Positions 36,944-59,600 of a DNA stretch of 64,000 nucleotides are shown here, piece after piece (within the stretch, counting starts at the first letter, position 1; each line of letters begins with the position of its first letter). Under the pieces are notes generated by a model. The model was not told the DNA's origin and ran no database searches. It saw only the letters and a list, made by a program, of their open reading frames with translations. Both the position numbers and the translations under genes were made by a program. The stretch is from Closterium sp. NIES-65. Taxonomy: Eukaryota > Streptophyta > Zygnematophyceae > Desmidiales > Closteriaceae. The stretch covers positions 744,001 through 808,000 of the forward strand of contig CANXME010002654.1 of the NCBI GenBank assembly GCA_948144175.1. Reading direction: 5' to 3'.

Positions 36944-37480
36944 CCATAGACTGGGTGCTTCGGCTCCCAGACAGTGCCTGGAGGGAAGGGGCAAGGAAAG
37001 CCAGCGGGGCGCTGAAGGAAAATGCGCTCATGAAGTTCGCCCTGAAGAAGGGCATTGGAGACATCCATAGAGTGATTCTTCCAATCCCAGCGAGCACCTA
37101 GGTCAAGAAGGAGGCGAAGAGTGGCGAGACGGGCAGTGGGGGAGTAAGTGGCAAAGTAGTCAATGCCTTCACGTTGGGTGAAGCCTTTGGCAGAGTAACG
37201 GGCTTTGAAGACAGGAAGCTCCCTAGGCAGCTGTTTGACACAAAAGACCCATTTGCCCTTGACAATGGTGGCGCCAGGGGGGGGGGAACAGAGTCAACGT
37301 AAGATTGAGTTCTGGTGAATGCCTCACAGTCGGCAATCATGGCAGCCATCCACTCTGTTGCATGAAAGCCAGACACTGCCTCGGAATAAGTATGAGTGGT
37401 GGGAATAGCGGCAGTGTCAACGGAGAGAAGTGTGGGAAAATTGGAGGGGTGAAATGGGATGAACAGAGAACAGCTCTTCA
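36944..37480 (-). pseudogene. Copia E RT N-terminal fragment
   Basis: The minus strand encodes T-Y-S-E-A-V-S-G-F-H-A-T-E-W near 37380. The frame changes at the C-run (a G-run on +, about 37279-37288). The sequence then continues with G-K-W-V-F-C-V-K, F-K-A-R-Y-S-A-K-G-F-T-Q-R-E-G and M-D-V-S-N-A-L-L-Q-G, and stops at the satellite junction before the Y-V-D-D box. These are standard Copia RT motifs. Confidence 0.85.
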
Positions 37481-39585
37481 AATCGATCCTCGAGAAGATC
37501 GACGTTTGGAGAGGGAGAGAGACGAGTTAAGAGAGTAGAGTGTTGGAAATTGGACATGGCACGTGTCATGGAGCAGGTGAGACGCGGAGAAGGTGGGGGA
37601 GCAGGAGAAGGAGAGAGAGGAGAAGGATGTCGTGAAGGAGAGGGCATGGGAGCTGAAGAGGAAGAGGAAGGAGGAGAGGGGCCAGAGATGACAGCAGAGG
37701 GAGGGGTGGAGGGGGCAGGGAGGGGAGGCGGAGCAGGGGCGGGAGGTAGTGGAGAAGGAGGGAGAGTAGCAGAGGGCAGCGGATCAAAGTCAGACCAACG
37801 AAGAGAGGGAGGAGGAGGGGTGGGAGGGGGGGTGAGGAAAGGGGAACGAGTCTCATCAAAGATAACATCTTGGCTGCGAATGAGCTGCTGAGAGGAGGAA
37901 GCATAGAAAAGATAGCCAGGACAGTCAGAGTTGATGCTAATGAACACACAGAGGTGCGTCTTGGGAGCCAGCTTCCCACCCCGACGTGCTTGATCGGCGG
38001 GATTGATGAGGACATGGGCGACACAGCCCCAGACCCGAAGAAGGCGGGCGGAGGGCTGGCGGCCAGTCCAGAGCTGGAAGGGTGTAATGGAAGGGCGAAG
38101 GGGATGAGGGCGAAGGTTGGAAAGAAGATTGGCATGAAGAAGAGCGTAGCTCCAAAGCGAGTGTGGAGCAGAGGCATGAGTAAGGAGATAGTGGGTGATC
38201 TCCATGAGAGTGCGAATACGACGCTCGGCAATACCATTCTGTTCAGGAGAATGCGGAAGGGTGGAGGTTTGGCGAATGCCATGAGTGGAGCAGTAAGAAG
38301 AGATAGAGTGGTTAAGGAACTCGCCACCACAGTCAGAGTGGAGGCGTGCGACATGATGGCCAAAGTGAAGGGGCGCCTGCTCAGCCCAGCGAATGATGAG
38401 AGAGGGGGCGTCAGACTTGGCACGGAGGGGATAGACAGTGGCAAAGCAAGAGTGGTCATCGACAAGAAGGAGAAAGTAACGATGACCTTGACGAGAGGCA
38501 ATGGGAGAGGGACCCCAGAGGTCCATATGCACAAGATCAAGGGGTTTGGAGGAGGCAGAAGGGGACGAGGGATGAGGAGATTGGGAGAGCTTGGCTTGAA
38601 CACAAGGGGTGCATGGAGGAGCGGGAGAGGGGGGTAGGGGCGGGAGAGAGGAAGGGAGATCATGAAGCAGCTTCAAATGGACCATGCTGCGAAGGAGAGG
38701 GAAGTTGGGGTGGCCAAGGCGATGATGGGGAAGAAGGGTAGGTTGGGTGAGAGAGCGACAGTCGCAAGAGGAGACAGAAGAGGAACTGTGATTGATAGAT
38801 GTGAGGATGGGAACAAGAAGGGTGTAGAGGCGAGTAGAAGGAGAAAGGGTGAAACGAGCGAGGTGCCGGTCGTGGTAATGAAGATCACAATAGAGTTCAC
38901 CTGCGGGGAAGAACACTCGCACACCCAGACGTTGGAGGGCAGGGAGGGAGAGGAGGTTATGACGGCAAGAGGGAACATTAAGTCCCGTAACAGCGCCAGA
39001 GGGAGAGGCAGGACAGGGAAGAGAGGAAGTGCCAGTGCAGATCATGGTCATGGTCTCCCCAGCCCCATTGATAGAGAGGGGACGAGGAAAATTGCAAAGG
39101 ACACCAGCATCACGGAAGACAGAGTCAGTAGCAGCACTATCAAGGACAAAATCCAAGGTGCGAGGAAGTGAGAGAGCGGCAGCCGTAGGGCTGGGAGAGT
39201 GAGAGACAGTGCTGGGAACGGGTGGAGAAAGTGGAACGACAAAACAAGGGTCCATGAGCGGAGGAGCACCAAGGATGCTATCCAGGGATGGCATGGTCAC
39301 ACTGAAGACAGAGGCCAGAGAACCAATACTAGAGGTGACAACGGCACAAGAGTGGCGACTGTGATGGGACAGCGGAAGCCAAGTAGAGGGGCGGAGAAGA
39401 GGGGAGGTCCATCGGCAAGTAGGAGAGGTGCAAGGGGAGGAAGGGGCAGCGAAGGGAGCGGAGATTAAGAAAGGCAAGATTAGGAGAGGAGATACGGCAG
39501 GAGACGGGTGAGGGCGGAAGCGCAGAGGAGGAGAGGTAAAAGGGAGAATAGGCCCCATCGCGGGAAGGGGGTAGCAATGGAGCAT
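37417..39585 (-). pseudogene. Copia E protease and integrase region
   Basis: An open frame of 722 codons. The protease-like segment has F-V-L-D-S-A-A-T-D-S-V-F near residue 150, where D-S-G-A is expected, so the conserved Gly is replaced by Ala. The pre-integrase motif is H-H-R-L-G-H-P. The integrase has H-M-D-L-W-G-P, H-S-D-C-G-G-E-F and E-Q-N-G-I-A-E-R-R, all catalytic acids kept, then R-V-W-G-C-V-A-H. A Pro/Ser-rich linker of about 120 residues leads to the RT. The first ~100 residues are low complexity, and the start codon is not defined by any motif. Confidence 0.88.
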
Positions 39586-39659
39586 ATGTGGGGAGATAAA
39601 AGAGGAGGAGGAATAGGGACGAGGGAGTCAGCTGCTGAGCCGTTGAGGGGAGAAATAAG

Positions 39660-41090: not shown

Positions 41091-44000
41091 CCTACTCCAA
41101 CCGTCCATCAGACCAACAGGCTAGTTTGTCCAACTGGTCCACTGGACCAACAGGTAAGTTGGTCCAATCGGTCCATTGGAACAACAGGTTAGTTGGCCAT
41201 CCAGACCACTGGACCAACAGGCTAGTTGGTCTAACCGGTCCATTGGACCAATAGGCCAGCTTGTCCAATTGGTCCACTGGACCAACAGGCCAGTTGGTCC
41301 AACCGATCCACTGGACCATCAGGTGAGTTGGTTAAATCCGTCCACAGGACCAACAGGCTAGTTGGTCCAACCGGTCCACGGAACTAACAGGCCAGTTTGT
41401 CCAACCAACCCACTAGACGAACAGGCCAGTTGGTCCAGCCGGTCCACTCGACCAATAGGCCAGCTAGTCCAACCGGTCCATTGGACCAACAGGACAGTTG
41501 GTCCAACCGGTCCATTGGACCAACAGGTGAGTTGGTCCAACTGGTCCATTCGACCAACAAGTCAGTTGGTCCAAGCGGTCCATCAGACCAACAGGCTAGT
41601 TGGTCCAATTGGTCCACTAGACCAACAGGTGAGTTGGTCCAATCGATCCACTAGACCAGCAGGTCAGTTGGTCCAACCAGACAACTGGACCAACAAGCCA
41701 GTTTGTCCAACTGGTCCACTGGACCAACAGGCCACTTTTCCAACCGGTCCATAGGACCAACAGTCCAGTTGGTCCATCCGGTCCACTGGACCAATAGGCC
41801 AGCTGGTCCAGCGGTTCCATTGGACCATCCGGCGAGTTGGTCCAACCGGTCCACAAGACTAACAGGCCAGTTGGTCCAACTGGTCCATTGGACCAACCAG
41901 CGAGTTGGTCCAGCCGGTCCACTGGACCAAGAGGCCAGTTGGTCTATCCAGACCACTCGACAAACAGGCCAGTTGGTCCACCCGGTCCACTGGACCAATA
42001 GGCCTGTTGGTCCAACCGATCCATAAGACCAACAGTCCAGTTGGTCCAGCCGGTCCACTGGACCAACAAGACAGTTGGTCCAGCCGGTCCACTGGACCAA
42101 CAGGCCAATTGGTCCAGCCGGGTCATTGGACCAACACGCCAGTTGGTCGAACTGGTCCACTGGACAAACAGGCCAGTTGGTCCATCCGGACCACTAGACC
42201 AACAGGCCATTTGGTCAACCATGTCTGTTGGTCCAACCGGTCCACTCGACCAATTGGTGAGTTGGTTCAACCGGTCCACGGGACCAACAGGCCAGGTGGT
42301 CTAATCGGTCCATTGGACCAAAAGCCAGTTTGTTCGATTGGTCCACTGGACCAATAGGCTAGTTTTCCAACCGGTCCATAGGACCAAAAGTCCAGTTGAT
42401 CCATCCGGTCCACTCGACCAACAGGCCAGTTGGTCCAGCCGGTCCATTTGACCAACACGCAAGTTGGTCCAACTAGTGAACAGGACTAACAGGCCAATTG
42501 ATCCAACAGGTCTATTGGACCAACCGGCGAGTTGGAATAGCCGGTCCACTGGAGCAACAGGAGAGTTGGTCTAACCCCAGACCACTAGACCAACAGGCCA
42601 GTTGGTCCAACCGGTCCACTGGACAAACGGGCCGGTTGGTCCAACCGGTCCACAACACCAACAGGCCACTTTGTCCAGCTGGTCGAGTGACCAACAAGTC
42701 ATTTGGTCCAACCGGTCCACTGGACCAATTGGTGAGTTGGTTCAACCGGTCCACGGGACCAACAGGCCAGGTGGTCTAATCGGTCCATTGGACCAACAAG
42801 CCAGTTTGTCCAATTGGTCCACTGGGCAAACAGGCCAGTTGGTCCAACCGGTCCATAGGACCAACACGCCAGCTGGTCCATCCTATCCACAGGACCAACA
42901 GACGAGTTGGTCCATTCGGTCCACAGGACCAACGGGCCAGTTGGTCCAACCGATCCACTGAACAAATAGGCCAGTTGGTCCAGCCGACCAACAGGACCAA
43001 GAGGTCAGTTGGTCCAACTGGTCCATTGGACTAACAGGTGATTTGGTCCAACCGATCCACTGGACAAATAGGCTAGTTGGTCCAACCGGTCCATTGGATC
43101 AACAAGCCAGTTGATCCAGCCGGTCCACTGGACCAACAAGCCAGTTGGTCCAACCCATCCACAGGGCCAACAGGCTTGTTGGTCCAACCGGTCCACTCCA
43201 ACAGACCAGTTGGTCCAACCGGTCAATTGGACCAACCGGCGGGTTGGTCGAGCCAGTCCATTGAACCAACAGGCCAGTTGGTCCAACCGGTCTATCGGAC
43301 AAACAGGTGAGTTGGTCAACCCGGTCCACTCGACCACCAAGTGAGTTGGTCCAAGCGGTCCATCGGACCTACAGGCTAGTTGGTCGAACTGGTCCACTAG
43401 ACCAACAGGTAAGTTGGTCCAATCGGTCCATTGAACCAACAGGATAGTTGGCCATCCTGACCACTGGACCAAAAGGCTAGTTGGTCTAACCGGTCCATTG
43501 GACCAACAGTCCACCTTGTCCAATTGGTCCACTGGACCAGCAGGCCAGTTGGTCCTACTGATCCACTGGACCATTAGGTGAATTGGTTAAACCGGTCCAT
43601 AGGACCAAAAGGCCAGTTGTTCCAACCGGTCCATTGGACAAACAGGTCAATTGGTCCAACCGGTCCATTGGACCAACAGGTGAGTGGATCCAACCGGTCT
43701 ACCGGACAAACAGGCCAGCTGGTCCAACCGGTCCACAGAACTAACAGGCCAATTTGTCCAACTGGTCCACTGGACCAACAGGCCAGTTGGTCCAGCCGGT
43801 CCACTGGACCAACGGGCCAGTTGGTCCAATCGGTCCATTGGACCAACACGACAGTTGGTCCAACCGGTCCATTGGACCAACAGGTGAGTTGGTCCAGCTG
43901 GTCCATTCGACCAACAGGTGAGTTGGTCCAATCGGTCCACTGGACCAACAGGTTAGTTGGTCGAACCAGACAACTGGACCAACAAGCCAGTTGGTCTAAC

Positions 44001-45521
44001 TAGACCAATAGGCCAGTTTGTCCAACCGGTCCACTAGAACAACATGCCAATTTTCCAACCGGTCCACTGGACCAACAAGCTAGTTGGTCCAACTGATCCG
44101 CTGGACAAACAGGCCAGTTAGTGCAACCGATCCACTGGACCAACAGGTGAGTTCGTTCAATCGGTCCAAATGACCAACAGGCCAGTTGGTCCAACTTGTC
44201 CATTGGACCAACAGGCCAGTTGGTCCTACCGGTCCACAGGACCAGTACGCTTGTTGTTCCAACAAGTCCACTTGACCAACAAGTGAGTTGGTCTAACCGG
44301 TCTACTGGACAAACAGGCCAGTTGGTCCAACCGGTCCATTGGACCAACAAGTGAGTTGGTTAAAACAATCCACTGGACCAACTAGCCAGTTGGTCCAACT
44401 GGTCCACTGGACAAACAGGCAAGTTGTTCCAACCGTTCCTTTGGACCATTAGGTGAGTTGGTCCAGCCGGTCCACTCGACCAACAAGTGAGTTGGTCCAA
44501 GCAGTCCATCGGCCCAACAGGCTAGTTGGTCCAACCGGTCAACTGGACAAACAGGCCAGTTGGTTCAACCAATCCATTGGACCAACCAGTGAGTTGGTTC
44601 AACCAGTCCATAGGACGCATAGGCCAGTTGGTCCAACTGGTCCATTGGACCAACAGGCCTGTTTGTTCAACCGGTCCACAGGACCAACAGGCTTGTTGGT
44701 TCAACCGGTCCACTACACCAACAAGTGAGTTGGTTCAACCGTTCTACTTGACAAACAGGCCAGTTGGTCCAACCGGTCCACAGGACTAACAGGCTAGTTT
44801 GTCCATCCGGTCCATAGGACCAATAGGCCAGGTGGTCCAGCCGGTCCATTGGACCAACAGGTGGGTTGGTCCAACCGGTCCACTCGACAAACAAGTGAGT
44901 TGGTCCAAGCAGTCCATCGGACCAACAGGCTTGTTGGTCCAACTGGTCCAGTGGACCAATAGGTGAGTTGGTCCAATCGGTCCACTGGACCAACAGACCA
45001 GTTTGTCCAACCGGTCCACTGGACCAACAGGCTGGTTCTCCAACCGGTCCACAGGCTAGTTGGTTCAACAAGTCCATTTGACAAACATGCTAGTTGGTCC
45101 AACCGGTCCATGGGACCAATAGGCCAGTTGGTCGAGCTGGTCCACAGGAACAACAAGCTTGTTGGTCCAATTGGTCCACTGGACCAACAGGTGAGTTGGT
45201 CCAATCGATGCACTGGACCAACAGGTTAGATGGTCCAACCTGAAAACTGGACCAACAGGCCAGTTGGCTAATCGGTCCATTGGACCAACGGGCCAGTTTG
45301 TCCAAACGGTCCACTGAACCAACAGGCTTGTTGGTCCAACCGGTCCATTGGACCAATAGGTGAGTTGGTCCAACCAGTTCACTGGACAAACATGCCAGTT
45401 GGTCCAACCGGTCCATTGGACCAGCAAGCCAGTTCGTCCAACGGGTCCACAGGACCCAACAAGCTTGATGATCCAACCGGTCTACTGGACCAACAGGCTA
45501 GTTGGACCAACCGGTCCACTG
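41091..45521 (+). repeat. 34-bp satellite S2, left array (about 130 copies)
   Basis: The repeat unit is GGTCCAACCGGTCCACTGG followed by ACCAACAGGCCAGTT, 34 bp. Units vary by point changes, and some end GGTGAGTT instead of GGCCAGTT. The unit lacks stop codons in most frames, so many overlapping frames with a 34-residue period (W-T-N-R-P-V-G-P-T-G type) appear on both strands; these are not genes. Gypsy F is inserted at the right end. Confidence 0.97.
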
Positions 45522-45940
45522 TGTCACCGCATATGCACTTAATGCATATGCTATAACAGTAGAATGATGGTGGAGTGTGGGTTTCATCCTAAGTCCATAG
45601 GAAGATGAGATAGGAATAAGAATATAGGTAATAGGTGTAGGATGTAGCAAAGTTACTGTTAGGAGCGAGGGTGTAGAAGGGGGGAAACAGCATAAGAGCG
45701 GTTGAGATAAAAAGGGGGAAAGAATCCGAAAGGCGAAATGTGAAACCAACGAACCCCAACCCCGAGCCGCACATTTTGGAAATGTGCAGCCAGGGGTGGG
45801 GTAAGGTCACTCACCTCCAACCCATCGATGCTTTCTCGCTAATATTCCCTTGCACTAGTGAAACTGATTGTCTCACGCTCTAGCACACGACAGCACGACA
45901 CTAATAGGGAACCTACGGGGTGAGAGATCAGGCTCTTTCA
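45522..45940 (+). repeat. 5' LTR of Gypsy F (419 bp)
   Basis: TGTCACCGCATATGC ... GGCTCTTTCA. It matches 53099-53517 at 411 of 419 positions by eye, with no indel. It holds GCATATGC twice near the start and a small inverted repeat CACATTT-TGG-AAATGTG near 45771-45787. No obvious TATA box precedes the presumed RNA start. Confidence 0.95.
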
Positions 45941-45955
45941 TATTAGCGAGAAAGC
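45830..45955 (+). promoter_or_regulatory. Self-priming pair of Gypsy F
   Basis: GCTTTCTCGCTAATA at 45830-45844, inside the LTR, is the exact reverse complement of TATTAGCGAGAAAGC at 45941-45955, the first 15 bases after the LTR. The last LTR base (A, 45940) can also pair with T 45845. No tRNA-type TGG site follows the LTR. In the S. pombe retrotransposon Tf1 the 5' end of the RNA folds back on such a site and primes reverse transcription. The same mechanism is inferred here and would place the RNA start near 45830. Confidence 0.75.
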
Positions 45956-46089
45956 GGACACGGGGGCTAGGACTGTAACTTCCTAGCGCGAACGAGATGG
46001 ATCGATACGAGCTGCTCTGGGGTAGGGCGTATAGCTGACGGGAGGAGGAACGGGAGCGCCGAGAGTCGTCACGAGAGCGTGGGCGATCC

Positions 46090-48531
46090 ATGGAGCGATC
46101 GCCACGCCATCCCGCCTTCCGCGCCGATCGGGTCCCTGTCGTGAGGGACGGTCGAGTAGCTGATGCGCGAACGAATGACGAAGGACACGCCGAACGCGCG
46201 GATCGAGATGCGTGGCTCCAGGAGAGCGGACGCGGACCTGGCGCGGAGGGCGGAAACCACCCCGGCGGAAGGGTGTTCCGCTCCCCGGAGGAGCGCGGAC
46301 GACGTCGCGACGAGAGAGGGCGGTGGTTGGCGTTCGGCGAGCAGTCTCGCGGACAAGGAGGGAGCGGCGGCAGCGTCGCTCGCGGAGAGAACTCGCCGCA
46401 CAATGCGGTTCGAGAAGAGACGCCGGAGCAGGGCGTGGAGGACAAGGAAGAAGGATCGGAACGGTCAGACGTGGAGGCAGGGATAAAAGGGGCGAATGAG
46501 GCGCGAACAGGAGGAACAAGCGATGCGGAAACCGAGCCGGCGGAGGCGCAAGCGGAGACGAGCCCGGTGGCGGTCGCAGAATTAGAGGCTCCGCCACCGG
46601 GATCGCGCGGTCGAGACGATCCCTACGAGGAAGGGCGGCGCACGGAGAGCTCCGGACGGCAGGAGCTGGGCGGGCCAGAGATGAGCCATCGAGCGTGGCA
46701 GGCGCCAAATTCGCGCGGCAAGGGAAAGGAGGAGCGGTCCCGCTTGGCGGAAAGGGAGCGGCGCCTCGGAGGAGGGTGCGTGGGCGAGTTCCGCCCGCGC
46801 GGCGAGCACCAGGAGCAGGGAGAGTGGAGCGGCGGCGCTTCGCATTTGGCAGGACGGCAGCAGCCGCGCGGGGAGAGGGGGCGAGAGACGGAAACAGCGC
46901 CGCCGAAGTGGCACGGTCAGCAGCAAGGGGGACGCAGCAGCACCATACGCTCGCCAGGCCGGACTAGGCAGAGGGAGCGGAGAGACAGCAGCTGGTCCCG
47001 CTCGCCGGACGGACAACACACGCGCAGGGAGAAGTACGCGGGGGAGTGGTCACCGTGGCGTCAGCCGCGCACTTGGAGTGAGCACCTGGACGCCTGGTCA
47101 CCATCGCCAGAGAGGCGGCCGCGGCGTGAGATGAGCAGATGGGAGGGGCAGGAGGTGCACGGACCGCCGACGGTGCAGTGGGGACGGACAGAGGGGCGAG
47201 GAGAATCGATGGAGTGGTACGAGGCAGGCGGGGGCCGCCAAAAGAGAAGAACGGAAGGCGGAACTCTGGCGCAAGGAGCAGAGCGGGCGCGGGAAGCTAG
47301 AGAGGGCATGCAGAGAGCACGGGTGGGGGGAACAGAGAGGAGTCGGCAGGAAGGGGCCAGCGAGGCATGGGGAGAGGGGCGTGGGGGCAGCAACGGCGCC
47401 CCACGGGTGGAGGTGCCCGCCACATTCTCAGGTGACCAGCGTGCAGGACCGACCCTCAAGAACTACCTCATGCAGGTGGGGAATGTGCGGTACCGCTGCG
47501 ACCGGCACCACATGGATCCAGTAGACTTCTTTCTGAGCCTGCCGAACACGCTCGAGGGAGAGGCCGAGACGCTCTACCGTATGAGGATGGAGGAACTGCT
47601 GTGGAGGGCGGGGAGGTACGGCGAGGACCCCACCGAGGCATTCCTGGAGAGGCTGCAGCGGCAATTCCCAGGGCACACGGCCGAGCGCATAAGGGAGTTC
47701 TAGGAATTCAGCAGGGGCAGGACTGAATCATTGCTGACCTATTACAACCGGCTGATAAATGTGGCGGAGGACGTGAGATGCACGGACAGCAGCCTTCTCG
47801 TCAGCAAGTTCCTGGGGGGCTTGGACGAGGCCTTAGGAGGGGGGCTGAGGATAAGGGTGTATGAGCTCGGAGCGGATGCAAGCCTGGAGGAGGTGTTCGC
47901 CTTGGCGGAGAGGGTGGAGCTCGCGCAAAGGAAATTCGAGGCATATCTCCCCAGGCCAGCAGAGAGGAGTAGGCGGCCAACGTGGGCGGCGGCCATAATA
48001 CCGGGAGGAGGAGGGAGAACAGAGGGACGAGGGGAGACTGGGGCGGATACCAGGACATGCTACAGGTGTGGACAGCCGGGCCATCTGCGCAGGGACTGCA
48101 AAAACTGTGATGGGTGCGGGAAGCCGGGGCATAGGAAGCGGGAATGCCCGGATGCAGCCCGGTGTGAAATCTGCAAAAGGCAGGGACATGAGGCAAAGGA
48201 TTGCTACCAGAGGGAAGGGGGGAGTGGGAGGCATTCAGAGGAGCTGCAGCGGCAGATTCACAGGTTGCAGGCACAGCTGAGGGCAACAGGGCTGAAGGGG
48301 GAGGCGGAGGCAGGAATGTACGCGGGAGAAGGGGGGGGAGAGGAGGTGGAGCAGGACGTGCAGTGTGCTCTCATGGCATGGAGGGGGAGAGAGGAGATGG
48401 GGCTGAGAAGCGGGGGAAGAGATGGCAGGCGAGAGCAAGGAAGGAAGGAGCAGGTGAAGGGAGAAGCGCCATCCGAGCCGGCCCAAGAGCCAGCCCCCGC
48501 ACGCCACCCCCAAGAGAGGCTGGCATGTTAG
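46090..48531 (+). pseudogene. Gypsy F gag
   Basis: Frame 1 from ATG 46090. The first ~430 residues are low-complexity, rich in Arg/Glu/Gly/Ser. A retrotransposon gag domain follows (about 47400-47960: F-L-S-L-P-N-T-L-E-G-E-A, F-L-E-R-L-Q-R-Q-F-P, L-L-T-Y-Y-N-R-L). Three consecutive CCHC zinc knuckles are intact at 48058-48099, 48106-48147 and 48163-48204. TAG at 47701-47703 breaks the gag domain. A second TAG at 48529-48531 lies between nucleocapsid and protease in the same frame as pol, so it is either another lesion or a natural gag terminator needing readthrough. Confidence 0.9.
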
Positions 48532-49089
48532 ACCTTAGTGCTACTGCTTGAAAAGGGAGCCATGGAAGTGGAGGGAGTGAAAGTAACGACAGCCATCATA
48601 GATACGGGGGCACAGAGCGTGATGTTGGGCAGAGGGATGGCTGAGAGGCTGGGACTGCTGGCTCCAGAGAGGCACGTGGCCAAGGGGATGTTGGTGATGA
48701 CAGCGGAAGGGGGGGAGCCGAAATGGATGCCATGCACACGGACGCCCATAGAAGTGACGCTGCTACCGGGGGGAACACATGAAACCAAAATCCGCATGAA
48801 GTGTGGGATTTCCGAGTCAGAGGACTTCGATGTGCTGGTGGGCACCGAGCTGGTGTATGCGGTAGGAATGACCATCTGCACTTGGATGGAGAGGGTGGAG
48901 TTTAGGACCAGATACTGGAAAAGGGAGGGGCCGCTAGGAGAACTGCCAGTGCGATTCGTGAAGGTGGAGCCGAAGAGAGCATACCAGGCCATGGGGGAGC
49001 GGCTACCAGGGGAGCAGGGAGGGCTGCTGGGGAGGGGAGGAGCGCGTAGAATGAAGAGGATGGACAAGCCGCAGCAGCAGAGTGATTAG
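48532..49089 (+). CDS. Gypsy F aspartic protease segment
   Basis: Continues in frame 1. Retropepsin core: T-A-I-I-D-T-G-A-Q-S with the D-T-G-A active site at 48601-48612, then M-L-G-R-G-M-A-E-R-L-G-L and F-D-V-L-V-G-T-E-L, the usual I/V-L-G-x-D/E-type second half. By family it processes the polyprotein. A Lys/Arg/Gln-rich spacer leads to TAG 49087-49089, in the context S-D-stop-Q-Q, just before the methyltransferase domain. Confidence 0.88.
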   Translation, partial: TLVLLLEKGAMEVEGVKVTTAIIDTGAQSVMLGRGMAERLGLLAPERHVAKGMLVMTAEGGEPKWMPCTRTPIEVTLLPGGTHETKIRMKCGISESEDFDVLVGTELVYAVGMTICTWMERVEFRTRYWKREGPLGELPVRFVKVEPKRAYQAMGERLPGEQGGLLGRGGARRMKRMDKPQQQSD

Positions 49090-50070
49090 CAACAGCCCAT
49101 CCACCTGGTGGAGTTATTTGGGGGGATAGGGGCAGGGCTGTCAGCAGTGGTGAGGAATGGGATAGCAGTGAAGAGATGGACATATGTGGAGAAGGAACCC
49201 AAGGTAAGGAGGATGGCGGAGCACCATGCCAAGAAGCTGCAAGCGGAATTCCCGGACCTGCTGAGTGAGGAGGTGATCAGCAAGGCAATGGGGGGGACGA
49301 TTCACGATGTGAAAGACATAGGCGAGGCCGAAGTAGCGAGCTGGGGGCAGGTGGATCTGCTGGTGGCAGGGTGGGAATGCCAAGAGGTGTCGTGGGCAGG
49401 CAGGGGCAAGGGAGGAGAAGATCATAGGACGAGGCTGCTGGAGGATCTGTTTCGAATCATGGAGTGACTGCAGGAGACGCAGGACAGGGTGGCATACTTG
49501 CTGGAGAACCTGGACCTGGAGGGGGATAGCAGAGAGCCAATCCGACTGGTGAGGGACAGGATCAGGGGACAACTGGGAGAAGGGGTGAGCTGTGATGCGG
49601 CCAGAATGGGGTCCTACGCGCACAGGCTCAGAATGTACTGGCAGAATGTGGTCCCTGCCGAGCAACTGCAAGCAGAGATGGAGGGGGTAAGGCGAGCAGC
49701 AGAAAGGAAGGTGAAGGACATCCTGGAACCAGGGCGGACCCCAGCACCAGTGTGTCACAAGAGCTACAGCAGGCACGAGCAGTGCAACCAAGTGGGGCAG
49801 GAGAGGAGGGCCCTGCCCACGCTGGTGGCGTATGTCGGGGCAGCAGGGTACAGGTGGGAAGCAGGGAAGCCGGGGCCAGGAATGGTGTATGACCACAAAA
49901 AGGGGAGATGGGAGGAGCCCACGGCACTGGAGCGGGAGCTGGCTATGGGATACGAGGAAGATGCAACAGTAGCGCCTGGGGCAAGTGAAGCGGACAAGAG
50001 GAGGGCTCTGGGGAATACAATGGATGGCCACGTGATGAGGTGGCTGATTCAGCGGATGTGGCGGGAGACG
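49090..50070 (+). pseudogene. Gypsy F C5 cytosine DNA methyltransferase domain
   Basis: About 325 residues in frame 1 between protease and RT carry the ordered motifs of C5 methyltransferases. Motif I is E-L-F-G-G-I-G-A-G (49111-49137, SAM binding). The motif II region is Y-V-E-K-E-P-K-V. Motif IV is D-L-L-V-A-G-W-E-C-Q-E-V-S with catalytic Cys at 49378-49380. Motif VI is E-N-L (49504-49512). The motif VIII-like H-R-L-R-M-Y-W-Q-N is at 49621-49647. The motif IX-like E-P-T-A-L-E-R-E-L-A-M-G-Y lies near 49917-49955. Motif X is R-A-L-G-N-T-M-D-G-H-V (50002-50034). A TGA at 49465-49467, after motif IV where TGG would fit, is the only break inside the domain. Motif IV has Glu instead of the usual Pro before Cys. 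Predicted role: methylation of cytosine in DNA, perhaps of the element's own copies. Confidence 0.9.
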
Positions 50071-52962
50071 GTCGTGAGCTGGGGGCAGGCGGAAGAGAGA
50101 GGAAGGATGGAGGCGGAGCCACGAGGTGCATGGAGCTGCCAGGAGAAGGAGGAGGGGAGCTGGGTGGTGGGGGAAGCGATGAGCAAGGCGGGAAAGGAGG
50201 CCATGCAGGAGCTGCTCGCCAGGCACAGGAAGTGCTTTGCCTTCACCATGCAGGAACTGGGAAGGTGCAAGGTGAAGGAGATGGAGCTGAAGCTGAGCAG
50301 CACAGAACCATTGTTCCAGCGCAGGAGGAAGATGCCGCCTGGGGATGAGGAGATCTGCAAGGAGAAGATCAAGGAGCTGCTGGAAGCAGGACTGATTAGG
50401 AGATCGGAGTCTGAGTATGCCACACCCACAGTGGTGGCAGCCAGGAGAGACCTGACAGGGGAGGTGCTGAGCAGGAGGATGTGTGGAGACTACAGGGCAC
50501 TCAACAAAATCACCGTAGCAGACAGGTACCCGATGCCGATGGCAGAGGAAATCTTTAACAAACTGGCAGAGGGGGTGTTCTTCACTACGCTGGACCTGCG
50601 GCAGGGGTTCAACCAGATCAAAATCAGAGAGGAGGACGTTAGGAAGACGGCCTTTCATGGGCCAGACGGGCTGTACGAGTGGTTGTACATGCCGTTTGGA
50701 CTGAGGAACGCATCAGCAGTATTCCAGAGGATCATGGACAGCGTGCTGCGGGGAGTGGAGTGCGCAACCTGCTACATTGATGACGTGGTGATCTTCAGCA
50801 CCACAGAGCAGCAGCACCTGCAGGATGTTGAGCGGACCCTAGTGGCGGTTGAAGAGGTGGGACTCACCTGCCATCCGAAGAAGTGCAGATGGGGGGAACA
50901 GACGGTGCAGTACCTAGGGTATGAGGTGAAAGGGGGACAGATTGGGATCCAACAGGCCAAGGTGGAAGTCCTGGACAGACTGAGGGAGCCGAGGGACAAG
51001 TCAGGGCTGAGAGCAGTGCTGGGCTTCTTGAGCTACTACAGGCGGTTTGTCCCCAACTTCAGCAAGCGAGCAGCAGTGTTGAATGTGCTATTGTGGGAGG
51101 ACCAGGCGTGGGAGTGGGGGGAAGCACAGAAAGGGGCGCTGCAGGACCTGATGGCAGCAGTGAAGACCGCGACGGTGCTCAAGCTGCCCGCCGCTGATCA
51201 GCCGTTCACGCTCTACACCGATTGGAGCAGCCAAGGGATGGGAGGGATCCTCTGCCAGGAGGTAGAAAGAGAGGAGAAGGTAGTGGCATATGCGAGCAGG
51301 AGCTGCAACTTGGCAGAGGCACAGTACAGCTCCTACATCGGAGAAGGGTTGGCAGCCATATGGGCAGTAGGGCATTTCAGGGTGTACCTGCAGGGGAGGG
51401 AATTCACCTTAGTAACTGACCACCAGCCCCTGACGTGGCTGATGTCAACCCCAGGACTGACGGGCAGGAATGCAAGATGGGCGATGAAGCTACAGGAGTA
51501 TGACTTCAAGATCAGGCATAGGCCAGGAAAGACACTGCAACACGTAGATGGCCTCTCACGGAACCCCCCACCGCTTGAGCCCACCGTAACCTTGACACTG
51601 CTGGCCAGATTGGTGGAGCAGAACGGGGCCAAGGAGGGGAAGGGGCCAGCAGACATATGGGAGGACGGGCCGGCCCTGCGATGGGTAAAGGGAGAGACGG
51701 GAGAGGATGAAGCGCTACCGGCACGAGTAAGGGCAAGGGGCCAGCACTACCGGTGGTACCAGCAGCAGTTGCAGGTGCAGACAGAGGACGGATGGAAACT
51801 GGTGCTGGCTCCAAGTGAGAGGGGAGCGGTGATTAAGGAGGTCCACAACAAGCTAGGGCACTTTGGGCACGGAAGGACAGTGCAGCTGTTGAAGACAGGG
51901 TGGTGGTGGGAGGGGATGCGGAGGCAAGTAAAGGGGTGGGTGGAGGGCTGTGAGGCATGCCAAAGGAGTAGGGCAAACCTCACCCAAGCCAAGGCGGAGT
52001 TGCAGTCGCTGCCCATCCGAGGCCTCGGCTTCCGATGGTCCTTAGACCTGCCGGGGGAGCTGCCTCTGAGCCGTGGGGGGAAGCAGTACATAGTGCTCAT
52101 GGTCGAACATGTGAGCAAGTGGCTGGAGGTAAGAGCGATCCCGAGCAAGAGCTCCAGACACGTGGCAGCAGCGCTCAAGGAACAAGTGTTGTGCAGGTTT
52201 GGGGCATGTGCAGAGGTCCTAACAGATCAAGGGTCAGAGTTCCAAGGGGAGTTTAAGAGGCTGCTGGAGGAGACCGGGATCACCCACAGGCGCACTTCGC
52301 GGTACCACCCACAGAGCGATGGGCTGACTGAGCGACTGGTCCAGACCTTGAAGCGGGGACTGCGAGCGTACGCGGAAAAGAGGAAGCGGGACTGGGACGA
52401 GGAGCTGCATTGGATAGCAGCAGGGTACAGATTTGGGAAGCAGGCAGAGCTGAGAGATCACTCCCCTTATAGTCTCCTATATGGGTGTGAGCCGCTGCTG
52501 CCGGTGGGAGCAACCCGGGTCCTTACAGACACTGTGACTGCAGGGACGATAGAGAACTGGGTGGCGCTATCCGAGGCCAGGGCAAGATACCTACGAGTGA
52601 TGATGCCAGCAGCATTGAAGAATCTCCACACCGCACAGCTGCGGGATGCTCGGAGATATGAGCAGAGGCAACAGCAAGGGGCGGGGGACAGACCCAGGAA
52701 GGAAGTGAGTCAGGGGCAGGAAGTGTACTTGAAGCGGGCAAAGCAAGACACGCTGGATGTTAAGGTGGGCACGGAAAGGTGGAGGGTGAAGGAGGTCCGT
52801 CCCTCAGGGGTGTTGGTTCTGGAAAATGACACAGGGGCACTCTTGAAGGAGCACCAGAGCAATACGGCCATGGTGAGGGGGAGCAAGCCTCACCAAGCAG
52901 GTCCTGTGACTCGGGCTCAGGCAGCTAGAGCACAAGCACAGGAGGGGGCAGTGGGTAATTGA
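50071..52962 (+). CDS. Gypsy F reverse transcriptase, RNase H and integrase
   Basis: Part of an uninterrupted frame (49489-52962, 1,157 codons) that begins inside the methyltransferase. The RT spans about 50200-51150, with G-D-Y-R-A-L-N-K, T-L-D-L-R-Q-G-F, L-Y-M-P-F-G-L and the catalytic Y-I-D-D at 50773-50784. RNase H follows (51150-51570), with Y-T-D-W-S-S, E-G-L-A-A-I-W and V-T-D-H-Q-P-L. Integrase: H-H-C-C zinc region near 51840-51965, then Asp at 52045-52047, Asp at 52225-52227 and Glu at 52330-52332 (spacing 34). No chromodomain is visible in the C-terminal ~130 residues. All catalytic residues are intact. The frame ends at TGA 52960-52962. Confidence 0.95.
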   Translation, partial: VVSWGQAEERGRMEAEPRGAWSCQEKEEGSWVVGEAMSKAGKEAMQELLARHRKCFAFTMQELGRCKVKEMELKLSSTEPLFQRRRKMPPGDEEICKEKIKELLEAGLIRRSESEYATPTVVAARRDLTGEVLSRRMCGDYRALNKITVADRYPMPMAEEIFNKLAEGVFFTTLDLRQGFNQIKIREEDVRKTAFHGPDGLYEWLYMPFGLRNASAVFQRIMDSVLRGVECATCYIDDVVIFSTTEQQHLQDVERTLVAVEEVGLTCHPKKCRWGEQTVQYLGYEVKGGQIGIQQAKVEVLDRLREPRDKSGLRAVLGFLSYYRRFVPNFSKRAAVLNVLLWEDQAWEWGEAQKGALQDLMAAVKTATVLKLPAADQPFTLYTDWSSQGMGGILCQEVEREEKVVAYASRSCNLAEAQYSSYIGEGLAAIWAVGHFRVYLQGREFTLVTDHQPLTWLMSTPGLTGRNARWAMKLQEYDFKIRHRPGKTLQHVDGLSRNPPPLEPTVTLTLLARLVEQNGAKEGKGPADIWEDGPALRWVKGETGEDEALPARVRARGQHYRWYQQQLQVQTEDGWKLVLAPSERGAVIKEVHNKLGHFGHGRTVQLLKTGWWWEGMRRQVKGWVEGCEACQRSRANLTQAKAELQSLPIRGLGFRWSLDLPGELPLSRGGKQYIVLMVEHVSKWLEVRAIPSKSSRHVAAALKEQVLCRFGACAEVLTDQGSEFQGEFKRLLEETGITHRRTSRYHPQSDGLTERLVQTLKRGLRAYAEKRKRDWDEELHWIAAGYRFGKQAELRDHSPYSLLYGCEPLLPVGATRVLTDTVTAGTIENWVALSEARARYLRVMMPAALKNLHTAQLRDARRYEQRQQQGAGDRPRKEVSQGQEVYLKRAKQDTLDVKVGTERWRVKEVRPSGVLVLENDTGALLKEHQSNTAMVRGSKPHQAGPVTRAQAARAQAQEGAVGN

Positions 52963-53098
52963 GGCTCTGCAAAAGGGAGAAGGAGGAAACTGGAGAGCCG
53001 GCATGAGAAGAACAGGTGCAGGAAGAAGAGCAGGTGCATGGTAAGAGGAGGTGCATGAAGGAGAGCGGCGGCTGAGAGGAGGAAGGTTCGCCGACAGC
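52951..53098 (+). repeat. 3' tail of Gypsy F with polypurine tract (copy B1)
   Basis: Runs from the last codons of pol to the LTR. GAGAGGAGGAAGG near 53075-53088 is the probable polypurine tract, and TG of the LTR follows at 53099. The whole segment recurs after the LTR at 53524-53673. Confidence 0.85.
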
Positions 53099-53517
53099 TG
53101 TCACCGCATATGCACTTAATGCATATGCAATAACAGTAGAATGACGGTGTAGTGTGGGTTTCATCCTAAGTCCATAGGAAGATGAGATAGGAATAAGAAT
53201 ATAGGTAATAGGTGTAGGATGTAGTAAAGTTACTGTTAGGAGCGAGGGTGTAGAAGGGGGGAAACAGCATAAGAGCGGTTGAGATAAAAAGGGGGAAAGA
53301 ATCCGAAAGGCGAAATGTGAAACCAATGAACCCCAACCCTGAGCCGCACATTTTGGAAATGTGCAGCGAGGGGTGGGGTAAGGTCACTCACCTCCAACCC
53401 ATCGATGCTTTCTCGCTAATATTCCCTTGCACTAGTGAAACTGATTGTCTCAGGCTCTAGCACACGACAGCACGACACTAATAGGGAACCTACGGGGTGA
53501 GAGATCAGGCTCTTTCA
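53099..53517 (+). repeat. Second LTR of Gypsy F (419 bp)
   Basis: Same length and ends as 45522-45940. It contains the internal primer segment, but is followed by AACGCTGTGGG and not by the self-priming site. Confidence 0.95.
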
Positions 53518-53523
53518 AACGCT

Positions 53524-53673
53524 GTGGGCAAGTGAGGCTGTGCAAAAGGGAGAAGGAGGAAACCGGAGAGTCGGCATGAGAAGAACAGGTGCAGGAAGAA
53601 GAGCAGGTGCATGGTAAGAGGAGGTGCATGAAGGAGAGCGGCGGCTGAGAGGAGGAAGGTTCGCCGACAACTG
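53524..53673 (+). repeat. Second copy of the Gypsy F tail (copy B2)
   Basis: Repeats 52951-53098 with about six substitutions (offset 573 bp) and stops at, or within a few bases of, the point where an LTR would begin. S2 satellite follows at once. Confidence 0.9.
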
Positions 53674-56600
53674 GGCCAATAGGCGAGTTGGTTCATCCGG
53701 TCCATTGGACCAACAGACTAGCAGGTCCAACCGGTCCATTGGACTAAGAGGCCAGTTGGTCCAACCGGTCCATTGGACCAACTCTCCAGTTGGTCCAACC
53801 GGTCCACTAGACCAACAAGTGAGTTGGTCCAACCGGTCCACTAGACCAACAGGCCAATTGGTCCAAGCGGTCCATTGGACTAACAGTCCAGTTGGTCCAA
53901 CCGGTCCACTGGACCAACAGGTGAGTTGGTCCAACCGGTCCACTAGACCAACAGGTGAGTTGGTCCAATGGGTCCGTTGGAACAACAAGCCAGTTGGTCC
54001 AACCGGTCCACAGGGTCAAGTGGCCACTTGATCCAACCAGTCCACTAGACCAATAGGTGAGCTGGTCCAACCGGTCCACAAGACCAACAGGCTTGTTGGT
54101 CCAACCGGTCCATTGGACAAACAGGCCAGTTGGTCCCACCGGTCAACTGGACCAACAGGCCAGTTGGTCCAACCGGTCCACTGGACAAATAGGCAAGTTG
54201 GTCCAACTGGTCCACTCGACCAACAGGTGAGTTGGTTTAACCGGTCCACACGACAAACAGGCCAGTTGGTCCAACCGGTCCACTGGACAAATAGGCTAGT
54301 TGGTCCAACCAGTCAACTGGACCAACAGGCTTGTTGGTCCAACCGGTCCACAGGACCAACAGGCTTGTTGGTCCAACCAGTCCATTGGACCAACAGGTGA
54401 GTTTGTCCAACCAGTCTACTGGACAAACAGGCCAATTGGTCCAACCGGTCCATTAGACCAACAGGCTAGTTGGTCCAACCGGTCCACTGGGCAAACAGGC
54501 CAGTTGGTCCAACCGGTCCACTCGACCAACAAGTGAGTTGGTCCAACCGGTCCACTAGACCAACAGGCCAATTGGTCCAAGCGGTCCATTGGACGAACAG
54601 TCCAGTTGGTCCAACCGGTCCACTAGACCAACAAGTGAGTTGGTCCAACCGGTCCACTAGACCAACGGGTGAGTTGGTCCAATGGGTCCGTTGGAACAAC
54701 AAGCCAGTTGGTCCAACCGGTCCACAGGGTCAAGTGGCCACTTGATCCAACCAGTCCACTAGACCAATAGGTGAGCTGGTCCAACCGGTCCACAGGACCA
54801 ACAGGCTTGTTGGTCCAACCGGTCCATTGGACAAACAGGCCAGTTGGTCCCACCGGTCAACTGGACCAACAGGCCAGTTGGTCCAACCGGTCCACTGGAC
54901 AAATAGGCAAGCTGGTCCAGCTGGTCCACTCGACCAACAGGTGAGTTGGTTTAACCGGTCCACGCGACCAACAGGCCAGTTGGTCCAAGCGGTCCACTGG
55001 ACAAATAGGCTAGTTGGTCCAACTGGTCAACTGGACCAACAGGCTTGTTGGTCCAACCGGTCCACAGGACCAACAGGTTTGTTGGTCCAACAGGTCCATT
55101 GGACCAACAGGTGAGTTCGTCCAACCGGTCTACTGGACAAACAGGCCAATTGGTCCAACCGGTCTATTAGACCAACAGGCTAGTTGGTCCAACCGGTCCA
55201 CTGGGCAAACAGGCAAGTTGGTCCAACTGGTCCACTAGACCAACAGGCCAGTTGGTCCATCCGGTTCTTTAGACCAACAAGCTAGTTGGTCCAACCGGTC
55301 CACTGGACCAACAGGCCGGTTGGTCCAGCCGGTTCATTAGACCAACAGGCTAGTTGGTCCAACCGGTCCACTGGGCAAACGGGCCAGTTGGTCCAACCGG
55401 TCCACTGGACCAACAGGTCAGTTGGTCCATGCGATCCATTGGACTAAGAGGCCAGTTGGTCCAACCGGTCCATTGGACCAACTGTCCAGTTGGTCCAACC
55501 GGTCCAGTGGACCAAAAGGTGAGTTGGTCCAACCGGTCCACTAGACCAACAGGCTAGTTGGTCCAATCGGTCCGTTGGACAAACAAGCCAGTTGGTCCAA
55601 CCAGTCCACAGGGTCAAGTGGCCAGTTGATCCAACTAGTCCACTAGACCAATAGATGAGCTGGTCTATCCGGTCCACTCGACCAACAGGCCAGTCGGTCC
55701 AACCTGTCCATTGGACCAACAGGCTAGTTGGTCCAACTGATCCACTGAACCAACAGGTGAGTTGGTGCAGCCGGTCCACAGGACCAACAGGTGAGTTGGT
55801 CCAACCGGCCGATTGGACCAACAGGCCCCTTGGTCCAACTGGTCCACTAGACAAACATGCTTGTTGGTTCAACTGGTCCACTGGGCCAACAAGCCAAGTC
55901 AACCCGGTCCATTGGACCAACAGGCTAATGGGTCCAACTGATCCCCTGGAACAATAGGCGAGTTGGTCCAACCAGTCCATTGGACCAACATGCCAGTTGG
56001 TCCAACCGGTCCGTTAGACCAACAGGCCAATCGGTCCAACCATTTCATTGGACCACCAGGCAAGTTGGTCCAACCGGTCCACAGACCAATAGGCCAGTTG
56101 GTCCAACCGGTCCACTGGACCAACACGCCAGTTGGTCCAACCAGTCCACTGGACAAATAGGCCAGTTGGTCCAATCGGTCCACCCGACCAACAGGTGAGT
56201 TGGTTCAAGTGGTCCACAAGACCGAGAGGTCAGTTGGTCCAAACGGTCCAGTGGACAAACAGGCGAGTTGGTCCAACCGGTCAACTGGACCAACAGGCCA
56301 GTTGGTCCAACCTGTCCACAGGACCAACAGGCTTGTTGGTACAACCGGTCCATTGGACGAACAGGTGAGTTGGTCCAACTGGTCCACTTGACAAAAAGGC
56401 CGATTGGTCCAACCGGTCCATTGGACCAGCAGGCTAATTGGTTTAACAAGTCCACAGGACCAATAGGCTTGATGGTCCAACCAGTCTATTGGACCAACAG
56501 GCTAGTTGGTCCAACCGGTCCATTGGACCAACAGGTTAGTTGGTCCAACCGGTTCACAGGACCAACAGGCTAGTTGGTCCAGCCGGTCCGCTAGACCAAC

Positions 56601-59600
56601 AGGCTAGTTGGTCCAAGCGGTCCACTGGGCAACAGGCCAATTGGTCCAACCGGTCCACTGGACCAACAGGCTAGTTGGTCCAACCGGTCCACATTACGAA
56701 CAGGCCAGTTGGTCCAACCGGTCCATTGGACCAACCGGCAAGTTGGTCTAGCCGGTCCACTTGACCAACAGGCCAGGTTGTCCAACCAATCTATTGGACA
56801 AACAGGTGAGTTTGTCCAACCGGTCAACTCGACCACCAACAGGTGAATTGGTCCAAGTGGTCCATCGGACCAATAGGCTAGTTGGTCCAATCGGTCTACT
56901 GGACCAATAGGATAGTTGAAGATCCAGACCACTAGACCAACAGGTGAGTTGGTCTAACTGGTCCATTGGACCAACAGGCCAGTTTGTCCAATTGGTACAC
57001 TGGACCAACAGGCCAGTTGGTCCAACCGATCCACTCGACCATCAGGTGAGTTGGTTAAATCGGTCCACAAGACAAATAGGCCAGTTGTTCCAACCGGTCC
57101 ATAGAACCAAGAGGCCAGTTGGTCCAACAGGTCCAAATGACCAAGAGGCTTGATGATGCAACAGGTCTACTGGACCAACAGGCCAGTTGGACCAACCTAT
57201 CCATTGGACCAACAAGCCAGTTGGTCCAACCGGTTCATTGGACCAACAGGCCAGTTGGTCCAGCCGGTCCTCTGGACCAACAAGCTAGTTGGATCAATTA
57301 GTCCACTGGGCCAAGAGGCCAGTTGGTCCAACCTGTCCACTAGACAAACAGGCCAGTTGGTCAAACTAGTCAACTAGACCAACGGCTTAGTTGGTCTAAC
57401 CGGTCCACTGGACCAACAGGACAGTTGGTCCATCCGGTCCATTGGACCAACACGCCAATTGGTCCAACCGGTCCACATGACTAACAGGCCAGTTGGTCCA
57501 ACCCGTCCATTGGAGCAACTGGCGAGTTGGTCTAGCCGGTCCACTGGACCAACAGGCTAGGTTGTCCAACCAATCCATTTGACAAAAAAGTGAGTTTGTC
57601 CAACAGGTCGACTCGACCACCACGTGAGTTGGTCCAAGCGGTCCATCTCACCAATAGGCTAGTCGGTCCAACTGGTCCACTTGACCAACAGGTGAGTTGG
57701 TCCAACCAGTCCAATGGACCAACAAGTTAGTTGGACCAACCGGTCCACTGGGCCAACAGGCCAGTTGGTCCAACCTGTTCATTGGACCTACAAGCCAGTT
57801 GGTCTAGCTCGTCCACTAGACCAACAGGCTAGTTGGTCCAACCAGTCTACTAAGGAAACAGGCTAGTTGGTCCATCTGGTCCACTGGACCAACAAGCCAG
57901 TTGGTCGATCCGGTCCATCGGACCAACAGGCCACTTGGTCCAACCGGTCCACTTGACCAACAGTCCAGTTGGTTCATCCAGTCTATTGGACCAACATTCG
58001 AGTTGGTCCAATTGATCCACTCGACCATCAGGTAAGCTTACTAAACCTGTCCACAGGACCAACAGGCCAGTTGGTCCAACCGGTCCATAGGACCAACTGG
58101 CCAGTTGGTCCAACAGGTCCACAGGACCCACAGGCTTGATCCAACCGTTCTACTCGACCAACAGGCCAGTTGGAAAAACCGGTCTATTGGACCAACAGGC
58201 CAGTTGGTCCAACCGATTCATTGGACCAACAGGCAAGTTGGTCTAGCCGGTCCACTAGACCAACAGGCTAGTTGGTCCAACCGGTCTACTAGGCCAAAAG
58301 GCCAATTGGTCCAACCAATCCACTGGACCAACAGGCCAGTTGGTCCACCAGGTCCATTTGACCAACAGGCCAGCTGGTCCCACCGGTCCACAGGGCTAAT
58401 AGGCTAGTTGGTCCAACCGGTCCATTGGACTAACTGTTCAGTTGGTCCAATCGGTCCTTTGGACCAACAGGTGAGTTGGTCCATCCGGTCCACTAGACCA
58501 ACAGGCCAGTTGGTCCAACCGGTCCATTGGACCAACAGTCCAGTTGATCCAACCGGTCCACTGGACCAACAGGTGAGTCGGTCCAACCGGTCCTTTGGAC
58601 CAACTGGTGAGTTGGTCCAACCGGTCCACAGGACATACAGGCCAGTTGGTCCAACCGGTCGATTGGACCAGCTGGCCAGTTGGTCCAACTGGTCCACAGG
58701 ACAAATAGGCCAGTTGGTCCAATCGGCCCACTCGACCAACAGGTGAGTTGGTTCAACCGGTCCACAGGACCAAGAGGCCAGTTGGTCCAACCGGTCCACT
58801 GAACAAACAGGCCAGTTGGTCCAACCGGTCAACTCGACCAACAGGCTTGTTGGTCCATTGGACGAAAAGGTGAGTTGGTCCAACCGGTCCACTGGTCAAA
58901 TAGGCTAGTTGGTCCAGCCGGTCTATTGGACCAGCAGGCGAGTTGGTGGAACAGGTGCACAGGACCAACAGGCTTGATGCTCCAACCGGTCTATTGGACC
59001 AACAGGCCTGTTGGTCCAACTGGTCCATTGAACAACAGGTTTGTTGGTCCGACCGGTTCACTGGACCAACAGGCCAATTGGTCCATTCGGTCTGTTGGAC
59101 CGACAAGCCAGTTGGTCCAACCGGTCCACAGGCTCATGTGGCCAGTTGATCCAACCAGTCCACTGGACCAATAGGTGAGCTAGTCCATCCGGTCCATTGG
59201 ACCAACAGGCCAGTCGGTCCAACCGGTCCATTGGACCAAAAGGCTAGTTGGTCCAACTGATCCACTCAACCAACAGGCCAGTTGGTCCAACCGGTCAACT
59301 AGACCAACTGGCGTGTTGGTCCAACCGGTCCACATGACCAATAGGCTTCTTGGTCCAACCGGACAATTGGACCAACAGGTGAGTTTGTCCAACCATTCCA
59401 CACGACCAAGATGCCAGTTGGTCCAACCAGTCCACTAAATATACAGGCCAGTTGGTCCAACCGGTCAATTGGACCAACAGCCCTGTTGGTCCAACCGGTC
59501 CAATGGACAAATAGGCCAATTGGTCCAACAGGTCCACTCGGCCAACAGGTGAGTTGGTTCAACCGTTCCACAGGACCAACAGGCCTGTTGGTCCTACCGG

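Follow-up and report, generated by a model that had tools for sequence, protein, structure and literature searches.

The class of Gypsy retrotransposons with a DNMT3-type methyltransferase (MT) is already known: KnitGypsy-Dnmt3 has been described from Klebsormidium nitens, and a DNMT3-like MT also occurs in SymbioDIRS-Dnmt3 of Symbiodinium (de Mendoza et al., 2018, PMC5890265, excerpts). A first-pass annotation of the DNA studied here had likewise assigned MT-bearing retrotransposons to charophytes and dinoflagellates, in agreement with these two elements. The excerpts further report that the SymbioDIRS MTs produce CG methylation in yeast and that the MT of KnitGypsy-Dnmt3 produces none, a result called inconclusive by the authors, who proposed methylation of the cDNA for the DIRS case (PMC5890265). 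In a 2025 paper, some DNMT3 members were placed in retrotransposons; its excerpts name the Copia and DIRS families and contain neither "Gypsy" nor "Closterium", and "DNMT" is likewise absent from the excerpts of a Closterium publication. It is a puzzle why a parasite that is silenced by host DNA methylation carries a methyltransferase of the de novo type.

In this study, a stretch of 64,000 nucleotides from Closterium sp. NIES-65 (the window), positions 744001-808000 of its contig, was found to contain a Gypsy element with a DNMT3-like MT. With a probability of roughly 70%, we read it as one copy of a multicopy family that inserts by a self-primed, end-joined cycle; this is the best reading of the sequence signals, from which RNA ends, circles and enzyme activity are inferred. 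The explanation that it offers for the "DIRS-like" repeat order A-ORF-B-A-B may be new, and the way of jumping may be previously undescribed. No account of the primer site, the duplications or the joints was found in a narrow coverage of the literature, partly in excerpts, which tests novelty weakly; in the excerpts of PMC5890265 the primer site, the purine tract, the duplications and the diversity of the joint do not appear. A wider claim is tentative, at somewhat less than even odds: a Gypsy branch across green algae and early land plants would have acquired a DNMT3-like MT once and later moved it within Pol, would join its cDNA ends into circles or concatemers and insert these by way of an integrase site located in the LTR, and would use the MT on its DNA before insertion.

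Organization of the Element

The element spans positions 45522-53669 of the window on the + strand and lies inside a 34-bp minisatellite. Its Gag-Pol frame (46039..52962, +) contains four in-frame stops before the final TGA, namely TAG at 47701, 48529 and 49087 and TGA at 49465, the last of which falls within the MT domain; these stops make the window copy a dead one. With TAG at three of these four positions, a different genetic code was considered, but this was dropped, as relatives show long frames in the standard code. Pfam recognized zinc knuckles, Asp_protease_2, PF00145, RVT_1, RNase H, Integrase_H2C2 and rve on the main frame. The best Gag CCHC zinc knuckle is found at 48052..48105 (PF00098, 44.7 bits). 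It is followed on the same strand by an aspartic protease (PR, 48550..48918; PF13650, Asp_protease_2), the DNMT3-like C5 cytosine MT (49099..50049; PF00145), reverse transcriptase (RT, 50371..50931; RVT_1), RNase H (RH, 51106..51507; PF17917) and the integrase (INT), with its zinc-binding domain H2C2 (51802..51978; PF17921, Integrase_H2C2) and its core (52006..52446; PF00665, rve); from the protease onward, each domain is also matched by a profile built from homologues.

The first-pass annotation had placed a C5 MT between the protease and the RT of a Gypsy element, all in one frame, and on this Pfam and the homologue profile agree. In the region 49090-50070 from which that claim was drawn, PF00145 (DNA_methylase) matches the 125-aa piece 49090-49464 at 24.3 bits, over its cut-off of 22; the piece 49468-50250 has no Pfam match of its own and was recognized through relatives, and the homologue profile spans 49099-50049. 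The C5 MT motifs were also said to stand in the right order, and the order is indeed the unrearranged one, of the DNMT3 group. Absent from that annotation were the split direct-repeat ends, the DNMT3-like type, the Glu in motif IV, and the reach of the family to Marchantia-labelled and chlorophyte proteins.

Elsewhere in the window, several Copia-type pieces occur, so that the window is rich in such elements. One element at 30088-35277 (- strand) consists of two adjoining frames with Retrotran_gag_2-like, Pol_BBD and rve domains and then SH3_retrovirus and RVT_2. Further pieces with rve and/or RVT_2 lie at 9816-12197 (+), 16045-17046 (+; just under the RVT_2 cut-off), 37420-39627 (-) and 1849-2643 (+).

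A Multicopy Family

A PF00145 search of the 874-Mb assembly (2400 contigs) returned 901 first-look candidates. All 123 of those that were scored exceeded the family cut-off, which gives at least 123 MT matches in the assembly; the MT is therefore not a stray host fragment, and the possibility of a host gene piece confined to a single copy of the element falls away. Open frames of more than 2000 codons surround 10 of the 123 matches, the longest having 2321 codons. In the 20 copies that were fetched (loci L009-L028), the domain order is PR-MT-RT-RH-INT throughout, with a domain split between frames in three (L018, L026 and L027); since these 20 of the 123 scored matches were picked for long open frames, intactness is overstated. 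Six near copies belong to the subfamily of the window element, their MTs being 98.0-98.7% identical to the window MT, and in four of the six the MT is free of stops.

Median dN/dS of the MT was 0.087 for 10 pairs with dS 0.05-0.2, 0.064 for three pairs with dS 0.2-0.6, and 0.331 for 16 pairs with dS 0.6-1.5, these 29 of 325 MT pairs being the ones with dS 0.05-1.5 (296 lay outside) and sharing sequences among them. In the matching bins, RT gave 0.138 (9 pairs), 0.056 (1 pair) and 0.162 (4 pairs). The low ratios, in few and sequence-sharing pairs, show that the MT is under constraint, which may be weaker than that on RT where the pairs are distant. Within the window subfamily, pooled pN/pS was 0.60 (computed without codons that contain a stop or more than one difference), as expected if most insertions decay.

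Identity and Origin of the Methyltransferase

A profile of 12 Closterium MTs matched DNMT3A best among PDB chains (63 bits), followed by DNMT3B (58), 4onj (43), HhaI (34) and DRM2 (33). The chain 4onj is named only "DNA methyltransferase"; we take it to be a plant DRM. A structure model of one MT copy, built with 12 sequences, had a mean pLDDT of 79 and a pTM of 0.84, with values under 50 for residues 103-117 beside the catalytic Cys. The 50 best-listed PDB fold matches of this model were all DNMT3 entries, with TM scores up to 0.79 by target length and 0.67 by query length at 18-23% identity, and the segment AHRxRxYW of the MT corresponds to AHRARYFW of DNMT3A. By profile, to DNMT3A/3B, and by fold, on a related copy, the element MT is classed as DNMT3-like. 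A plain bacterial Dcm fits less well than DNMT3: TIGR00675 matches all 12 members of the profile, the first of them at 31.9 bits against a cut-off of 100.65.

Relatives extend beyond this genome. A search with part of Pol (the C-terminal half of the MT and the start of RT) gave 60 protein matches, 39 of them named Closterium, the best with 84% identity. A second protein search listed 33 proteins, among them five labelled Marchantia polymorpha and one Haematococcus lacustris; K. nitens sequences were absent among the matches of both searches. Four of the five Marchantia-labelled proteins have PR and then the MT, and the fifth has the MT followed by a weak RT match. The chlorophyte-labelled and many environmental proteins show the order RT-RH-MT-H2C2-INT, in which the MT is flanked by RNase H and the integrase domains; a PHD finger often comes after them. 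This finger follows the integrase in the chlorophyte-type proteins P0033, P0036, P0037, P0040, P0053 and others, and P0036 and P0057 combine a PHD finger with an MT placed before RT. Protein P0064, which has an MT of the element clade, is filed under Candidatus Obscuribacterales; its closest relatives suggest that it could be algal DNA contaminating that assembly.

A tree built with 53 MTs united the 44 from elements in one clade (100/100) on a long stem, within which the 15 MTs of the RH-MT-INT type formed a clade of their own (99/99); the PR-MT-RT type was not one clade, and the Closterium rows were weakly grouped (89/66). A tree of RT, RH and INT from 29 elements also set the 14 RH-MT-INT elements apart (97/98). 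Some rows of these trees were typed from partial proteins, and the MT tree holds one animal DNMT3, without host streptophyte DNMT3 or the K. nitens element MT. On these trees, the simplest reading would be one acquisition of the MT and one move inside Pol. The union of Marchantia-labelled and chlorophyte-type relatives in one MT clade is new.

The source of the MT may be sought in a host DNMT3 gene or, alternatively, in a DNMT3-like enzyme of phage or bacterial kind, which we consider rather unlikely. Three phage MTs outscored DNMT3A against the Closterium profile (72, 65 and 63 versus 57 bits), four of six phage MTs stood above or level with DNMT3A, and the best phage match reached 31.5% identity. 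Against the profiles of the two other groups, however, DNMT3A came first and all six phage MTs fell below it, and the MT tree does not settle how phage MTs, DNMT3A and the element MTs branch from one another. Among possible viral and plasmid relatives, 38 pattern matches in IMG/VR yielded no confirmed one, and the 24 plasmid records were weak.

Possible Role of the Methyltransferase

Made within Pol, the MT may methylate the cDNA or circle before insertion, which we take as the likeliest of its possible acts, with a nearly even chance. As part of Pol, it would likely be packed with the cDNA. The MTs of seven copies contain 47 private changes, 33 of which are C>T or G>A; of these 33, 24 fall at CG or CHG sites, where about 12 would be expected (chi-square p 1.3e-4), the counts being small and the direction of change being set by the agreement of the other six copies. 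The excess may be a trace of methylation, by the host or by the element.

Alternatively, the MT might target host chromosomes instead of the element cDNA, for example by shaping chromatin where the element inserts. This would suit the DNMT3-type enzymes, which work on chromosomes, as well as the PHD finger frequent in the related chlorophyte-type elements, and effects on the host methylome are discussed in the excerpts of PMC5890265. The location of the MT inside Pol, which favors delivery with the cDNA, and the methylome of K. nitens, described in the same excerpts as ordinary despite its elements, make this alternative unlikely.

We doubt to the same degree that the MT domain is non-catalytic and serves Pol as a DNA-binding or structural part. 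Support for this comes from motif IV. In C5 MTs, the catalytic Cys of this motif is usually preceded by Pro; all 26 complete Closterium MTs read GWECQ, with an invariant Glu in its place, a feature that is new. The inactivity of the K. nitens MT in yeast, inconclusive as it was to its authors, points in the same direction (PMC5890265, excerpts). Against a loss of catalysis, the Cys itself, the Glu aligned with the ENV motif, and the His, Arg and Trp of motif VIII are invariant in all 12 aligned copies, and the Marchantia-labelled pieces retain the Pro, as do most of the other environmental PR-MT-RT pieces. In pattern counts, which refer to pieces and not to proteins, PCQ was found in 4/4 Marchantia-labelled pieces and in 14/16 other environmental pieces (ECQ in 2/16). 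Pieces of the RH-MT-INT type had ECQ or ECN in 13/17 and PCQ in 4/17, and Closterium pieces had ECQ in 19/20, while the PCN of the remaining one probably comes from a chance match at another place in the domain.

Proposed Insertion Cycle

The repeats of the element are arranged in the order A1-ORF-B1-A2-B2. A1 (45522..45940, +), which starts with TGTC, and A2 (53099..53517, +) are 98.1% identical over 419 bases. B1 (52949..53096, +) and B2 (53524..53669, +; 5' start placed to within a few bases) both terminate in GACA and are 97.8% identical over 134 bases. Between B1 and A2, a GC spacer (53097..53098, +) completes the internal B|A site GACA-GC-TGTC. This site was found with its partner repeat in 15 of 21 loci and was exact in 14 of the 15; in the other six (L010, L013, L016, L026, L027 and L028), the B|A junction was absent from the fetched 10 kb.

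The insertion is bounded by A1 and B2 and not by two LTRs. In the window copy, the target-site duplication ACTG stands before A1 (45518..45521), where the minisatellite array stops, and after B2 (53670..53673), where it restarts; accordingly, Tandem Repeats Finder ends the 34-bp minisatellite at 45521 and restarts it at 53670, and the flanks, once joined, match the minisatellite at 81.5% along their full 200 bases. The array (41096-45521 and 53670-63258) has a palindrome-like unit in about 130 and 282 copies and is broken exactly by the element. Duplications of 4 bp before A1 and after B2 were present at all 13 loci with both ends read, the chance of one such match being about 1 in 256 at even base use; L022, in which the 5' end was not located, and L018, in which B2 was not located, are not among the 13. 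The 13 loci represent 12 separate sites, because L009 and L017 share flanks. These two lie on different contigs with common target flanks and a common joint, and for that reason are probably alleles or a duplication.

Directly behind A1, a 16-nt self-complementary primer binding site (45940..45955, +) is the reverse complement of bases 309-324 of A1 (45830..45845, +), where the RNA is predicted to start. In the copies generally, the complement sits about 95-145 bases before the end of A1. The match is 16 nt in the window and 13 nt in 11 others, that is, at least 13 nt in 12 of 14 copies; of the remaining two, L021 has 8 nt and L023 none. The site starts at offset -1 or 0 from the A1 end in ten of the 12 copies; L011 and L012, in which the end of A1 is uncertain, have offsets of 6 and 8. 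Shuffles of A1 (200 per copy) gave a mean match of 6.5-7.3 and a maximum of 13 or 14 in three of the 14 copies (window, L009 and L019). Covariation is stronger evidence than match length: six types of primer site differ at nine of 13 positions, and the complement was present in the type's own A1 in 6/6 cases and in the A1 of other types in 0/30. This fits what self-priming of the Tf1 style would need. TGG, with which a tRNA primer site starts, was absent from the 24 bases after A1 in all 14 copies, and the window contains no tRNA genes.

A purine-rich tract ending in GGGGG abuts B1 in 10 of 14 loci by script. In the window, the polypurine tract on the 5' side of B1 (52940..52948, +) was read by eye and was not linked by the script, which found none in L015 and L018 and linked L023 to another G-run. 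The pol frame runs through the tract and ends just inside B1 (52940-52962).

The A2|B2 joint varies from copy to copy. In the window, it contains extra bases (53518..53523, +) that resemble an end-joining scar. The strings of 12 window-subfamily copies, which include 11 read at A2 ends picked from 40 A matches (loci L050-L060), all differ, with 9 to 23 bases and eight lengths; indels occur in 1/12 copies on the 15-base left flank and in 0/12 on the 16-base right flank. Because small losses and additions thus fall at one place in otherwise alike copies, the joint is read as a product of end joining. In two pairs, L053/L057 and L055/L060, a single substitution is the sole difference, and each pair may have a joint in common. 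The joints of L009 and L017, whose flanks mark them as one insertion, differ from each other by nothing but substitutions.

These signals suggest the following cycle. The RNA would start inside A1 and end in A2, which would make B+A the working LTR. Its 5' end would pair with the site after A1 and prime reverse transcription, the plus strand would start at the purine tract before B1, and the cDNA would have the form B-A-ORF-B-A. The ends of this cDNA (the end of A and the start of B) would be brought together by end joining into a circle or concatemer, in which the integrase would cut the B|A site GACA-GC-TGTC and then insert A-ORF-B-A-B with 4-bp duplications. The joint data fit a circle and a head-to-tail concatemer alike. 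The product A-B-A-ORF-B, from a cut at the other B|A site, was not seen among the loci, which were chosen and read around the ORF.

Closure of the DIRS type would make end joining unnecessary. For DIRS, it has been proposed that the internal B-A stretch serves as a bridging template in the closure of the circle; here, the cDNA would be circularized in this way and then inserted by the integrase. The repeat order is that of DIRS, as was noted for K. nitens (PMC5890265, excerpts), and the near constancy of the internal junction is also in keeping with such a bridge. A templated joint should stay constant, however, and 12 of 12 subfamily copies differ; in addition, the main frame has an rve integrase without a match to a tyrosine recombinase, and 4-bp duplications are present. 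We therefore regard template-bridged closure as improbable. Least likely of all is an ordinary LTR element with A as its LTR, in which B2 would be what remained of a tandem copy or a recombination event: A1 and A2 are nearly identical and both start with TGTC, but the plain LTR reading of the 419-base repeats is strongly disfavored by the second repeat pair and the target duplication, which make A1 to B2 the insertion unit, with duplications outside B2 and not A2 at every locus read and window flanks that restore the minisatellite when joined.

If the end-joined cycle is correct, every insertion keeps its own end-joining scar, and genomes hold a readable record of them. Insertion from circles or concatemers would also explain the DIRS-like look of Gypsy elements, with a joint that can be read copy by copy, and it names a place and a time for the action of the enzyme, both of which can be tested.

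Relation to Known Elements

The catalytic domains of DNMT3A and DNMT3B (PDB 5yx2 and 6u8p) resemble the element MT in fold, motif order and AHRxRxxW. They differ from it in sequence, with about 20% identity in the fold alignment, and in having PCN in place of ECQ; unlike DNMT3A/3B, the main frame of the element shows no ADD or PWWP domain in its Pfam listing.

Among retrotransposons, KnitGypsy-Dnmt3 and the Closterium element share a Pol frame that combines Gypsy domains and a DNMT3-like MT, the DIRS-like repeat order and purifying selection on the MT, in different hosts; this comparison is one of descriptions and not of MT sequences (PMC5890265, excerpts). SymbioDIRS-Dnmt3 also combines a DNMT3-like MT in Pol with A-coding-B-A-B repeats, but it has a tyrosine recombinase, whereas the Closterium element has an rve integrase and 4-bp duplications (PMC5890265, excerpts). 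A tyrosine recombinase, which is a DIRS trait, was not among the Pfam matches of the main frame, where rve is found instead. DIRS retrotransposons, to our knowledge, make no target-site duplication, in contrast to the 4-bp duplications at 13/13 Closterium loci.

In ordinary Ty3/Gypsy elements, the polypurine tract precedes the 3' LTR; in the Closterium element, the tract precedes B1. Insertion sequences of the IS911 kind move by circles with abutted ends, and their recombinase site, two inverted ends 2 bp apart, is like GACA-GC-TGTC; in the Closterium element, the abutted ends belong to the LTR, and movement is through RNA. In Tf1 and sushi-type self-primed LTR elements, the primer site follows the 5' repeat and is complementary to the RNA 5' end. 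If its RNA starts as predicted, the Closterium element would be like them in a primer site complementary to the RNA 5' end, and it differs from them in its split repeats, its MT, and insertion ends that lie inside the LTR.
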